Source: Bacillota bacterium
GTDB lineage: Bacteria; Bacillota; Clostridia; Christensenellales; UMGS416
Length of the DNA stretch: 64,000 bases
NCBI GenBank assembly: GCA_016281935.1
Contig: JAEEJN010000078.1
Span: forward strand, 81,059-145,058
Direction of reading: 5' to 3'
Shown: positions 13,593 to 33,151 of the stretch, piece by piece
Layout: every line of letters starts with the position of its first letter
Position numbering within the stretch: position 1 is the stretch's first letter
The notes under the pieces: model-generated
What the model was told of the DNA's origin: nothing
The model's database searches: none
What the model saw: the letters and a program-made list of their open reading frames with translations, nothing else
Made by a program: the position numbers and the translations under genes

Positions 13593-15860
13593 CTACAGCT
13601 GATTTCTCATGATCTTTCCGCTGATGGTCTTGGGAAGTTCGTCCCTGAATACCACGATACGGGGATATTTGTAAGGCGCCGTATGGGCCTTGACGTAGTT
13701 CTGAATCTCCTTTTTCAGCTCCTCGGTCGGTTCTGTACCCTTGACCAGGACGACAGAAGCTTTGACGACCTGACCGCGAACCTCGTCCGGTGCAGCGGAA
13801 ACTCCGCATTCCAGGACATAAGGAAGTTCCATGATGACGTTTTCGATCTCGAACGGCCCGATGCGGTAGCCGGAAGACTTGATCACGTCGTCCGCACGGC
13901 CCACATACCAGAAGAAGCCGTCTTCGTCTCTCCAGGCCAGATCGCCCGTATGATACAGTCCGTCGTGCACGACTTCATCCGTGCGTTCCTGATCCCGGTA
14001 ATAACCTTTGAACAGTCCGCAGGGTCTTCCTTTGTCCAGCCGCACTACGATCTCACCGTTTTCACCGACTCCGACAGGTTTTCCATCCGGATCGACCAGA
14101 TCGATATCAAAGGTGGGAACAGCTTTGCCCATGGAACCGACTTTGTGACTGTCTCCGATCAGGTTGCCGATGGTCAGAGTTGTTTCCGTCTGCCCAAAGC
14201 CTTCCATCGGACGCAGGCCGGTCAGCTTCTCCAGCTGATAGAACACTTCAGGGTTGAGCGCTTCACCGGCGACCGTCGCGCGGTGGATCGAGGAGAAATC
14301 GTATCCGGACAGATCTTCCTTGATGAGCATGCGGTAGATCGTGGGCGGCGCGCAGAAAGTATCGATATGATACTTCTGGAACAGCGGAAGGATCTCGGTC
14401 GCATGGAAACGATCCATATCGTATACGAAAACGGTACCTTCACACATCCACTGCCCGTACAGTTTGCCCCAGAGCGCTTTGCCCCATCCTGTTTCGGAGA
14501 TCGTCAGATGCAGCCCTCCGGGCTGGATATCATGCCAATAGCGAGCCGTGATGAAATGACCGAGAGGATAACGGTAGTCATGCAGAGCGATCTTCGGATA
14601 ACCGGTCGTGCCGGACGTGAAGAACATGAGCATCGGATCCTCTCCGCAGGGAGAATCCTCTTCTCTGCGGAAACGGCGGGTATAGAGGCCGTATTCGGCA
14701 TTGAAATCATGCCAGCCTTCCTTCTGCCCTCCTACGAGGATCTTCAGTTCCAGTTCCGGGCACTGTGCCGCCGCAAGATCCACCTGGTGCGATGCGTCGC
14801 CGTCGGCCGTACACACGATCGCGCGGACCCCGGCAGCCTGGAAACGATAGATATAGTCATGTTCCTGTAGCTGGTTTGTCGCGGGGATGGCAATAGCGCC
14901 GAGTTTATGCAGCCCAAGGATTGCGAACCAGAATTCAACATGGCGTTTCAGCACGAGCATGACCCGGTCGCCTCTGCGGATCCCGAGCGCTTTGAAATAA
15001 TTGGCAGCCTGGGAAGAGGCGTCCTTCATATCCTTGAAGGTAAAGCGACGCTCCTTCATATTCTTGTCCAGATGGATCATAGCCAGCTGATCGGGATGCT
15101 TGCGGCCCAGATTGTCTACTACGTCAAAAGCGAAATTGAACCGTTCCGTATTGACGAAATCCGCAGAAACCAGCTTGCCTTTTTCATCTTCCACAGTATG
15201 GATGAATTCAGAGATCTCGAGAGGCTTGGCGTTTCTCGCCACCACAAGAGATTCTGAGACTTCCTTCTCTGTGGTCTCCTGACCGGGCAGCACGACGGCA
15301 AGGAACAGACAGTCCTTCCCTCCGGTAGCGATCATCCCATGGGGAGTCGCGGAATTGTAGTAGATACTGTCGCCTTCCTGCAGGACTTCTTCATGATCAC
15401 CGACCCTGACACGGAGTTCGCCCTCCAGCACGAGGTCGAACTCCTGGCCGGAATGCGTCGTCGTGTGGATCGGACGGTTCTGCTGCTCCTCCGAGTACGC
15501 ATAGCGCACCCAGTAAGGCTCTGCAATACGGCCCAGGAACTGCAGAGCCAGAGATGAGATCTCAATCCCGGGTTCTTTTGCAGTAACGGTTCCCTGTCCT
15601 TTGCGGGTCACTGTATAGGAACGCAGGTTTGCGCTGTGTCCTTCCAGAAGGTCCGCGATGCCGATACCGAAGATCTGGGCGCAGGTATGGATGAAAGTGA
15701 AGGGCAGATCGACCAGTCCCGCTTCATAGCGGCGGTAATCGTCCGCGGAAACACGGGTTCTGGCCGCCATTTCCTCTTCGGAAAGGCCGGAAACCATCCG
15801 CATTTCCCTAATACGGGCCGCAACTTCCCGTACCCGTTCGTCGACAGCTTGATAATCCAT
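13593..15860 (-). CDS. XRE-HTH + cupin + AMP-dependent acyl-CoA synthetase fusion protein
   Basis: N-terminal HTH (IREMRMVSGLSEEEMAARTRVSADDYRRYEAG), cupin (HSGQEFDLVLEGELRVRVGDHEEVLQEGDSIYYNSATPHGM), then ANL enzyme motifs FFTSGTTGYPK, FGQTE, YHTGDLAWRDEDGFFWYVGRADDVIKSSGYRIGPFEIE, LPKTISGKIMR. Confidence 0.93.
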   Translation of the reverse strand: MDYQAVDERVREVAARIREMRMVSGLSEEEMAARTRVSADDYRRYEAGLVDLPFTFIHTCAQIFGIGIADLLEGHSANLRSYTVTRKGQGTVTAKEPGIEISSLALQFLGRIAEPYWVRYAYSEEQQNRPIHTTTHSGQEFDLVLEGELRVRVGDHEEVLQEGDSIYYNSATPHGMIATGGKDCLFLAVVLPGQETTEKEVSESLVVARNAKPLEISEFIHTVEDEKGKLVSADFVNTERFNFAFDVVDNLGRKHPDQLAMIHLDKNMKERRFTFKDMKDASSQAANYFKALGIRRGDRVMLVLKRHVEFWFAILGLHKLGAIAIPATNQLQEHDYIYRFQAAGVRAIVCTADGDASHQVDLAAAQCPELELKILVGGQKEGWHDFNAEYGLYTRRFRREEDSPCGEDPMLMFFTSGTTGYPKIALHDYRYPLGHFITARYWHDIQPGGLHLTISETGWGKALWGKLYGQWMCEGTVFVYDMDRFHATEILPLFQKYHIDTFCAPPTIYRMLIKEDLSGYDFSSIHRATVAGEALNPEVFYQLEKLTGLRPMEGFGQTETTLTIGNLIGDSHKVGSMGKAVPTFDIDLVDPDGKPVGVGENGEIVVRLDKGRPCGLFKGYYRDQERTDEVVHDGLYHTGDLAWRDEDGFFWYVGRADDVIKSSGYRIGPFEIENVIMELPYVLECGVSAAPDEVRGQVVKASVVLVKGTEPTEELKKEIQNYVKAHTAPYKYPRIVVFRDELPKTISGKIMRNQL

Positions 15861-15880
15861 TTGTTATACTCCTTCTGTTC

Positions 15881-15913
15881 AAAAAAGAACCGCCTCAGTC
15901 TGCACTGAGGCGG
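15881..15913 (-). terminator. T-box attenuator terminator hairpin
   Basis: Perfect 10-bp stem CCGCCTCAGT/ACTGAGGCGG followed by TTCTTTTTT on the minus strand. Confidence 0.9.
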
Positions 15914-16146
15914 GATTAACCGTGGTACCACTCAATTTGTCCTTACAGGACCTCTTCAGGCTCTAACAAGCCCTAAGCGATAACGCCGCTGCCGCGGAGG
16001 ATGTCTACTTCTCTTGGTTTCGGATCCTCAGCTCAGAAGGGATAGGATTTGAGAGACACACGACCGGGCTTTCACCGTCCCCGGATCTCTGTACATGAAG
16101 AACTCTCTTCCCGTCTTCCTCATAGCCTTTGCTATGTATGGATTGC
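15881..16146 (-). ncRNA. T-box leader riboswitch
   Basis: Minus strand contains TGAGTGGTACCACGG (complement of 15920-15934), matching the conserved T-box; Stem I-like elements ATGAGGAAG...AGAGAG...GGTGAAAGCCCGG...TGAGC; and terminator CCGCCTCAGT-gcag-ACTGAGGCGG-TTCTTTTTT (15913-15881). Confidence 0.92.
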
Positions 16147-16174
16147 ATTATAGCACTTCACAGATTTCTGTCAA
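16147..16174 (-). promoter_or_regulatory. Consensus SigA promoter of the T-box transcript
   Basis: Minus strand TTGACA (16174-16169) - 16 nt - TATAAT (16152-16147). Confidence 0.85.
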
Positions 16175-16205: not shown

Positions 16206-17099
16206 TCAGACAGATACTCCGTCAAGCTGATTGTAGATGACTTCGCCTTCCGGCACCGAATGCGTCAGCCATACGTTGCCGCCGATCACCGCATTCTTCC
16301 CGATGACGGTATCTCCGCCGAGGATCGTCGCTCCCGCATAGATCACGACGCCGTCTCCGATATCCGGATGCCTCTTGATTCCCTTGACAAGGACGCCGTC
16401 TTCTCCTACGGGGAAGGATTTCGCACCCAGTGTCACACCTTGGTATAGTTTGACGTGTTTTCCGATGCGGCAGGTCTCTCCGATCACGACGCCGGTCCCA
16501 TGGTCGATGAAAAAAGACTCATCGATCGTGGCCCCGGGATGGATATCTATACCGGTGATCCTGTGTGCGTGTTCCGTCATCATACGGGGAATCAGCGGAA
16601 CACCCAGGCGGAAAAGGGCATGTGCCAGCCGATAGATGGATATCGCTTCAAACGCGGGATATGCCAGTATGATCTCCTGCTCCGAACGGGCGGCGGGATC
16701 GCCTTCATAAGCAGCGCGGATATCCGTCGACAGGATCCTCGCGATCTCCGGCAATTCTTCCATGAAAGAAGAAACGGTATGCGTCGCTGCAGACTGAAGG
16801 TCTTCTGCAGACATCGTTCCGTTCTGTTGGTAGCTGCCCTGCACGTCACAGCACATTCCGTACAGAAGAGCACCCGCCTGGGCCAGTGCTGCAGAAACAA
16901 CGGATTCAAGACTTTCCGGCCTTGAGATCTCTTCCTGATACACATGAGGATACATGGCGGTGCGGACAAGATCGATGAACCGTACGATCCGATTTTTCAG
17001 TCCATAACCTCCCAGGGGCTGGAAACCTTCCCTGATCTTGTTCATACCCAAAAGCTGGCGCATGACTTCAGCTCTCTGGGGCTCATACCAATCGTTCAT
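16206..17099 (-). CDS. cysE: Serine O-acetyltransferase
   Basis: Left-handed beta-helix hexapeptides: IDIHPGATIDESFFIDHGTGVVIGETCRIGKHVKLYQGVTLGAKSF...; start at 17099 with GAGGATACT RBS. Confidence 0.9.
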   Translation of the reverse strand: MNDWYEPQRAEVMRQLLGMNKIREGFQPLGGYGLKNRIVRFIDLVRTAMYPHVYQEEISRPESLESVVSAALAQAGALLYGMCCDVQGSYQQNGTMSAEDLQSAATHTVSSFMEELPEIARILSTDIRAAYEGDPAARSEQEIILAYPAFEAISIYRLAHALFRLGVPLIPRMMTEHAHRITGIDIHPGATIDESFFIDHGTGVVIGETCRIGKHVKLYQGVTLGAKSFPVGEDGVLVKGIKRHPDIGDGVVIYAGATILGGDTVIGKNAVIGGNVWLTHSVPEGEVIYNQLDGVSV

Positions 17100-17242
17100 A
17101 GTATCCTCCTTGAGGTTCATGTGCTTTATTGTAGCACAGCGATCCCCGCGGTGCAACAAAGACAGACATCCCTTACATATCCGGCGTCCGCATTCCAGAC
17201 CCGATAGGCAAAAAGGCCTCCGAAGAGACCTTTCCCGGTCCG

Positions 17243-18031
17243 TTATTCCAGATGTTCGGAAAGGAAGTCCGCAAATGCCAGCCATTCCCCGGGCGAAAGC
17301 TCTTCCGGCCGCGCCTTTGCAGACTGACCTATGGCTTCCAGTGCTTCCGATGCACGCTCTTTTGTGATCCCTGCAGCGCCCAGTATCCCCGGCATCTGTT
17401 TGCGCCGCTGCGTGAACGCACAGCGGGTCAGCCTTCGCACTCTGGCCAGCCGTTCATTTTCCGGCCTGATCTTCTTTTTCTCCAGCATGAGTACCGCTGA
17501 ATCCACATGCGGCTGAGGCATGAACGCCGCTGGAGGCACTTCGATCGGGATGTCAGCTGTCCAACCAAGCGCGATCTCAATGGCCAGAGGCCCATAGTCT
17601 TTTGTACGGAAAGGCGCTGTCAGCCGTTCGGCCGCTTCCTTCTGCATGAGAAGCGTCACCCGTTCAGGGACTGTGTATTCCCAAAGGATCTTCTTCACGA
17701 TGTCCGTCGTGATGTAATAAGGTACGTTTCCCGCTACAGAGAAGCTGTTGCCGAGCTTTTCAACGGTCTTTTCCTCGCGGACCTTCAGAAAATCTCCCCA
17801 GAGTATCTCAACGTTGGGCAGGCGCCCCGCGCCGATCTCAAGAGCTTCCTTCAGGCCTGTATCGATCTCCACGCTCAGGACTTTTTCCGAACGCCGGGCA
17901 AGGCAGCGGGTCAGGGCGCCTTTGCCCGCTCCGATCTCGAGCACACAGCCCCCGTCGGGGACCGCAGTCTCTGCTATGGCTTCCAGATATCGGTCATCTG
18001 TTAAAAAATGCTGTCCCAGTGGTCGGGCCAT
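17243..18031 (-). CDS. rsmA: 16S rRNA (adenine1518-N6/adenine1519-N6)-dimethyltransferase
   Basis: ARPLGQHFLTD, VLEIGAGKGALT, VAGNVPYYITTDIV (NxPY) motifs. Confidence 0.93.
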   Translation of the reverse strand: MARPLGQHFLTDDRYLEAIAETAVPDGGCVLEIGAGKGALTRCLARRSEKVLSVEIDTGLKEALEIGAGRLPNVEILWGDFLKVREEKTVEKLGNSFSVAGNVPYYITTDIVKKILWEYTVPERVTLLMQKEAAERLTAPFRTKDYGPLAIEIALGWTADIPIEVPPAAFMPQPHVDSAVLMLEKKKIRPENERLARVRRLTRCAFTQRRKQMPGILGAAGITKERASEALEAIGQSAKARPEELSPGEWLAFADFLSEHLE

Positions 18032-32143: not shown

Positions 32144-33151
32144 TTACTGCTCTTCTTCAGTTGTGTCCCGTCCCAGGGCCTTCGCTCTGATCTTGGCCTC
32201 AAGTTCAGCCGCTTCTTCAGGATTTTCCACAAAGTAACGGCGCGCGTTTTCGCGTCCCTGACCGATGCGGTTGTCCTTGTAGGAGAACCAGGCTCCGGAT
32301 TTGGTCACGAGTTCGTATTCCACACCGAGATCCAGAAGACTTCCCTCCTTGGAGATCCCCGTACCGTACATGATATCGAATTCGGCCTGTCTGAAAGGCG
32401 GAGCCATCTTGTTCTTCACGACTTTGACACGGGTACGGTTGCCCACGACTTCGCTGCCCTGTTTCAGGCTCTCGATCCTCCGGATGTCCAGACGGACAGA
32501 AGCATAGAACTTGAGCGCGCGTCCGCCGGTCGTCGTTTCCGGATTCCCGTACATGACGCCGATCTTCTCACGCAGCTGGTTGATGAAGATGATGCAGGTG
32601 TTGGTCTTGTTGACGGCCCCGGCGAGTTTGCGCAATGCCTGAGCCATGAGGCGAGCCTGAGCACCCACGTGGGAATCACCCATATCGCCGTCGATCTCAC
32701 TCTTGGGAACGAGTGCCGCCACAGAGTCGACGACCAGAATATCGATGGCCGCGCTGCGCACAAGAGCATCTGCGATTTCCAGCGCCTGCTCACCGGTGTC
32801 CGGCTGAGAGAGATACAGGTCATCAAGCACGACGCCCAGATTCTGAGCATAATTCACATCAAGGGCATGTTCTGCATCGATGAACGCAGCGATGCCGCCT
32901 CTCTTCTGTGCCTCGGCGATGCAGTGCAGAGCGAGTGTCGTTTTGCCGGAGGATTCCGGTCCGTAAATCTCAATGATGCGGCCGCGCGGAACACCGCCGA
33001 TACCTAAAGCAAGATCCAGTTCCAGGCAGCCGGTGGGGATCACATCCACCTGGATCGCCTGCTGGTCGCCCATGCGCATAATGGAACCTTTGCCGAATTG
33101 TTTTTCGATCTGAGCCAGTGCCTGCTCCAATGCTTTCTGTTTATCGTCCAT
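32144..33151 (-). CDS. recA: Recombinase A
   Basis: [57 protein letters not shown]. Confidence 0.98.

Follow-up and report, generated by a model that had tools for sequence, protein, structure and literature searches.

An isoleucine-specific T-box riboswitch upstream of an XRE-cupin-acyl-CoA synthetase gene suggests controlled use of branched-chain acids for amino-acid synthesis in uncultured Clostridia

Introduction

It has long been established that rumen bacteria form amino acids from isobutyrate, 2-methylbutyrate, and isovalerate. Work on the use of branched volatile fatty acids by ruminococci describes how rumen bacteria carboxylate and aminate isoacids to form branched-chain amino acids (Allison et al. 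1962, cited in PMC7356843), and 2-methylbutyrate is reported as a precursor of isoleucine and isobutyrate as one of valine (PMC7356843). That work is physiological, and we found no gene or regulation named in it. In our literature search, whose scope left out most subscription papers, including the older T-box surveys, no paper naming the activating genes and the control of rumen isoacid use was found, and no T-box was described on such an enzyme.

MacsMa from Methanosarcina acetivorans (PDB ID: 3ETC), for which we know of no T-box, is the closest PDB relative of the synthetase domain considered here (634 bits, approximately 51% identity), but it is archaeal and lacks the XRE-cupin part. Its preferred substrate is 2-methylbutyrate, the binding of substrate depending critically on Trp259 (PMC10455477). 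The best NCBIfam match is MbcS of Staphylococcus aureus (NF047394), which selectively activates 2-methylbutyrate and isobutyrate and uses isovalerate poorly (PMC10026030). MbcS differs in having a role in fatty-acid synthesis and in handling both acids with one enzyme, in contrast to the two specialized copies found here. In the Geobacter iorAB-paaK arrangement (PMC2700814), a CoA ligase likewise accompanies a 2-oxoacid:ferredoxin oxidoreductase, and the genes are listed with others that are linked to amino acids and preceded by conserved sequences; the context there is aryl acid and tryptophan, and only the leuA leader is marked as a T-box.

With transcriptional T-boxes of Rfam family RF00230, the present leader shares Stem I with a specifier loop, the distal AGAGA/GGUGAAA elements, the Stem II AGUA/GAA S-turn, UGGU, and the overlapping antiterminator and terminator. 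It differs from them in controlling an XRE-cupin-acyl-CoA synthetase rather than a tRNA synthetase, a classical biosynthesis gene, or a transporter, and in scoring below the family cut-off.

Results

Organization of the leader

The window, a stretch of 64,000 nucleotides from an uncultured Bacillota bacterium, carries the leader at positions 15861–16174. Its features are as follows.

16169–16174, minus strand: -35 hexamer TTGACA (consensus 6/6)
16147–16152, minus strand: -10 hexamer TATAAT (consensus 6/6), at 16-nt spacing and preceded by TG
15903–16132, minus strand: T-box riboswitch, whole Rfam model (RF00230 positions 1–219 of 219)
16120–16123, minus strand: AUGA K-turn motif, preceding the GAAG strand
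16115–16118, minus strand: 5' strand GAAG of the lower Stem I helix, pairing with 16036–16039 (sequence and Infernal alignment)
16086–16090, minus strand: AGAGA motif of the Stem I distal region, invariant in 40/40 relatives
16041–16043, minus strand: specifier codon AUC (Ile), from calibration within the genome, the Infernal alignment, and invariance in 40 relatives; the next base is C16040
16036–16039, minus strand: 3' strand CUUC of the lower Stem I helix, followed by U and GAG (16032–16034)
15920–15933, minus strand: T-box GAGUGGUACCACGG, with UGGU at 15927–15930 for the tRNA 3' end ACCA
15890–15913, minus strand: intrinsic terminator stem-loop (10 pairs, 7 G-C), followed by UUCUUUUUU (U-run)

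The promoter thus matches the consensus at 12 of 12 positions with a spacing of 16 nt, and Stem I starts at approximately 16132. The SigA promoter, Stem I-like elements, T-box, and terminator reported in the initial annotation are all present, as is the degeneracy of the specifier-loop S-turn motif that it had pointed out. The 5' arm of the terminator overlaps the 3' arm of the antiterminator, making the two helices mutually exclusive, and their folding energies are -20.2 kcal/mol for the terminator versus -6.3 kcal/mol for the antiterminator alone. On the same strand, an upstream gene at 16206–17285 encodes a serine O-acetyltransferase of the EpsC/CysE type and ends some 30 nt upstream of the T-box promoter.

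Assignment to the T-box family

The covariance model of RF00230, proposed as a check in the initial annotation, accepted the leader over its full length, positions 1–219, with a score of 73.5 bits (E=2.9e-16 in a search of the short stretch; E=3.6e-16 in a whole-genome search), and the alignment supported AUC as the specifier. This score is below the curated gathering score of 93 bits, so that a default Rfam scan at the gathering threshold gives no match in the leader, a false negative. Scores of this order are usual in this genome, since only 4 of the 13 T-boxes found in the whole-genome search pass the gathering score. The nine below it include the leaders of serS, valS, proS, and asnB, and the sub-threshold score therefore reflects the limit of the model's reach and not non-membership. 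Free minimum-energy folding of the leader alone was uninformative (z = -1.14). A consensus structure derived from 40 Ile-type relatives, on the other hand, showed compensatory changes in 22 of 41 pairs. The whole-leader match, the specifier in the Stem I loop, the UGGN T-box, the antiterminator exclusive of the terminator, and the conserved pairing place the leader in RF00230; it is a genuine T-box.

Specifier codon

Nine other leaders of the same genome served as the calibration. In all of them the spacing between specifier and 3' GAG is constant, and a single base separates the specifier from the lower Stem I helix. The codons read in this way are ACC for thrS, AUC for ileS, UUC for pheS, GUC for valS, UCC for serS, UGG for both a trpB-like gene and trpD, and CUC for leuA; a leader with UAC, whose downstream gene is not assigned, fits the same offset. 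By this rule the specifier of the window leader is AUC at 16043–16041. The base that follows it is C instead of the usual purine, as also in 18 of the 40 relatives and in the asnB leader of this genome (specifier AAC), whose helix is one pair longer. In the alignment of 40 Ile-type leaders, which had been picked beforehand by their AUC call, A-U-C is invariant, while the preceding base is T, C, or A and the following base is A, C, or T. The preselection costs little because all of the other readable leaders carry Val codons. Between the two codons favored in the initial annotation, AUC and UAU, the calibration and the alignment support the former and reject the latter. A further candidate, CCU (Pro), which would involve a possible GGGA/UCCC helix, was overturned by the same two analyses.

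The initial annotation had also taken UGGU as an argument against tRNA-Ser. The discriminator of bacterial tRNA-Ser is normally G. The serS T-box of this genome (L008) nevertheless carries UGGU, so the bulge base is an unsafe guide to the amino acid here, and the earlier argument is unsound; serine is excluded by the specifier position instead. Among the tRNA genes identified in the incomplete assembly, tRNA-Ile(GAU) was not found.

The fusion enzyme

The gene downstream of the leader encodes a three-part protein.

13593–15860, minus strand: XRE-cupin-acyl-CoA synthetase, 755 aa (Pfam HTH_31, Cupin_2, AMP-binding, AMP-binding_C)
14481–14483, minus strand: codon of Gly460, on the predicted helix 459–472, which carries Trp464

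In the predicted structure model, the XRE helices span residues 3–73 and the cupin strands residues 91–191, and the synthetase begins at about residue 215. Foldseek confirmed the synthetase domain and was silent on the ligand of the cupin. The protein is not a member of the MbcS family, as it scores 425.6 bits against a curated cut-off of 850. With the numbering of MacsMa fixed by Tyr460, Arg490, and Tyr525 (PMC10455477) and by the Lys256 that the 3ETC title mentions (an offset of -23 from the chain number), Trp259 and Gly255 of MacsMa are conserved as Trp464 and Gly460 of the window protein, respectively. By analogy with MacsMa, 2-methylbutyrate is the predicted substrate. Of the branched or aryl acids initially suggested for activation and subsequent reductive carboxylation, the branched ones are supported and the aryl ones are not.

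A codon-residue match among paralogs and homologs

A second fusion, 72% identical to the window gene, is encoded in the same genome on contig C16 (5071–7347). The specifier of its T-box is GUG (Val), and a matching tRNA-Val(CAC) with discriminator A is present in the genome. Searches of relatives and GTDB genomes yielded 138 intact fusions, the named ones being almost all from rumen or gut Clostridia assemblies. A T-box lies directly upstream of 121 homologs, and its specifier, read by hand for about a dozen leaders and by an automatic caller for the others, is Ile in 77 cases and Val in 44, with nothing else found. The 77 Ile-specifier homologs comprise 72 fusions or adjacent gene pairs and five synthetases without the XRE-cupin part. 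The absence of Leu specifiers fits the poor use of isovalerate by MbcS. Tandem pairs of an Ile-type followed by a Val-type fusion are common. At several tandem loci, among them L053 (7372–3348) and, as the clear cases, L047, L051, and L145, a Val-type copy without its own T-box directly follows an Ile-type copy, and a single Ile T-box may therefore drive both genes there. In the distant relatives L065–L073, the XRE-cupin part and the synthetase are two adjacent genes split by a stop codon, and in most of these a T-box motif is missing immediately upstream.

At position 460, which precedes the acyl-pocket Trp by one helix turn, every one of the 77 Ile-specifier genes encodes Gly and every one of the 44 Val-specifier genes encodes Ala. 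The extra methyl group of Ala460 beside the pocket would be a change in the expected direction for a substrate one carbon smaller. The Ile/Val label changes only three times on the tree. In trees built without the segment around residue 460, the supported independent contrasts numbered three (full-length tree), four (synthetase), and five (first half of the synthetase), all concordant and none discordant; with only three to five contrasts, a formal sign test cannot be passed.

Many of the columns that best separate Ile- from Val-type genes fall in the XRE-cupin part, several of them on predicted cupin strands. Columns 96, 99, 116, 120, 126, 141, 187, and 189 of the window protein, in and around the cupin, are of this kind, hinting at a ligand pocket specialized with the product; our guess is that the XRE-cupin is a ligand-binding or regulatory part specialized in this way. 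The XRE-cupin part of the Val paralog is up to 68% identical to the Val clade and 49% identical to the window gene. Its synthetase domain is 83–84% identical to that of the window gene, yet Ala460 is kept. Judging from these identities, the paralog (L044:5020–7350) is a mosaic, probably produced by gene conversion.

Linked genes and the loss of IlvB and IlvC

Downstream of the Val paralog on C16 lie an ATPase-like gene, a ferredoxin, and VorA-B-G. The VorA of this cluster exceeds the cut-off of PRK07119 (VOR family; VorB-type 2-oxoacid oxidoreductase subunit), with 543.9 versus 399 bits, and the TPP and gamma subunits and the ferredoxin adjoin it. The window gene itself is not beside VOR genes. 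VorA occurs near the fusions in about 44 of about 119 stretches examined, many of those without it ending at contig ends or representing a single-copy Ile clade with no nearby VOR. The typical order is synthetase(s), ATPase-like gene, VorA, VorB, and VorG, and several of these stretches also contain a branched-chain aminotransferase. In the genome of the window, an IlvE-type aminotransferase is encoded on contig C28.

Profile searches did not find IlvB or IlvC in this genome, and IlvD was detected only below its cut-off; these absences are provisional because the assembly, from an uncultured bacterium, is 88% complete. In profile searches of 101 genomes, IlvB and IlvC were absent from 17 of the 20 fusion carriers, this genome included, and the remaining three carriers, all of one genus, keep both. 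The association between fusion and ilv loss (only p ~0.04, uncorrected for kinship) is supporting evidence only.

On C28, a T-box with a Leu specifier (CUC; 32759–32991) precedes genes for LeuA, an 827-aa fusion protein, and a branched-chain aminotransferase (L099:5750–10719). The 827-aa protein consists of a xylose-isomerase-like TIM barrel fused to another acyl-CoA ligase. Only one aconitase-family protein (a 758-aa frame) was found in the genome, and a separate LeuC was not. The ligase fusion at this locus and the lack of a separate LeuC point to a possible involvement of an acyl-CoA ligase in leucine synthesis as well.

Discussion

The initial annotation had proposed that the CoA ligase serves amino-acid supply, and the Ile specifier, the paralog with a Val specifier, VorABG and aminotransferase genes in the same operons, the preference of the closest solved relative for 2-methylbutyrate, and the missing IlvB and IlvC all support this. 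We consider the following scheme likely as a whole. Uncharged tRNA-Ile would be read through the AUC specifier, and its ACCA end would pair with UGGU, so that the antiterminator replaces the terminator. The synthetase would then be made when isoleucine is short, because uncharged tRNA-Ile would stabilize the weak antiterminator against the terminator. The enzyme is predicted to convert 2-methylbutyrate into 2-methylbutyryl-CoA, which the VorABG-type 2-oxoacid:ferredoxin oxidoreductase encoded on C16, working reductively, would turn into 3-methyl-2-oxovalerate, and a branched-chain aminotransferase would complete the synthesis of isoleucine. The paralog before the VOR genes, with its Val (GUG) T-box and Ala460, would lead from isobutyrate to valine by the same route. 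In principle, the reactions of VOR and of AMP-forming synthetases are reversible. We infer the response to tRNA charging, the substrates, and the direction of VOR from comparative evidence, the computed features of the loci.

The synthetase might instead supply 2-methylbutyryl-CoA chiefly as a primer for anteiso branched-chain fatty acids, with tRNA-Ile as a mere proxy for branched-chain supply, in line with the role of MbcS in branched-chain fatty acid synthesis in S. aureus (PMC10026030). We regard this as improbable, because the T-box reports the charging state of an amino acid, the Val/Ile pair corresponds to two amino acids, the linked genes are those of VOR and an aminotransferase and not FabH or lipid genes, and IlvB and IlvC are missing. 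The acyl-CoA may serve both purposes, the supply of fatty acids being a side use. A module running oxidatively, in which VOR acts in the breakdown of isoleucine and valine to acyl-CoA and the synthetase works backwards to release the acids, is less probable still. The VOR enzymes of fermenters do commonly run oxidatively, but a terminator T-box turns genes on in amino-acid starvation, which is the wrong sign for degradation; moreover, AMP-forming synthetases normally activate acids, and with the biosynthetic route missing a source of isoleucine and valine is needed.

It is extremely unlikely that the specifier is UAU (Tyr) or UCC (Ser) and that the enzyme contributes to the supply of a different amino acid, for instance via aryl acids. 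Both triplets share bases with AUC, the S-turn motif of the loop is degenerate, and UGGU does not discriminate. Only A-U-C is invariant among the 40 aligned relatives, however, and the flanking bases, on which UAU and the UCN codons depend, vary; the offset calibration points to AUC, and the relatives of the enzyme use small branched acids.

By this scheme, the present gut and rumen bacteria, in which the usual pathway is missing, probably make isoleucine via 2-methylbutyryl-CoA and valine from isobutyrate, both from scavenged branched-chain acids. More tentatively, the genes may form a module for salvage whose three specificities co-evolve: the tRNA recognized by the leader, the ligand pocket of the cupin, and one acyl-pocket residue. 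Such a module would replace IlvB and IlvC in many uncultured rumen and gut Clostridia, with the cupin adding a further layer of control by sensing the amino acid or an acyl compound. The Val paralog of this genome would then be a natural domain swap, in which the Val T-box, the Val-type cupin, and Ala460 are kept while the rest of the synthetase is Ile-like. Since the product amino acid of each synthetase can be read from its riboswitch codon, a vague ligase annotation would become an exact substrate prediction for more than 100 genes. The strict match between the RNA codon and the enzyme residue (AUC with Gly, GUN with Ala) provides a simple rule for assigning these enzymes and a test by mutagenesis of one residue.
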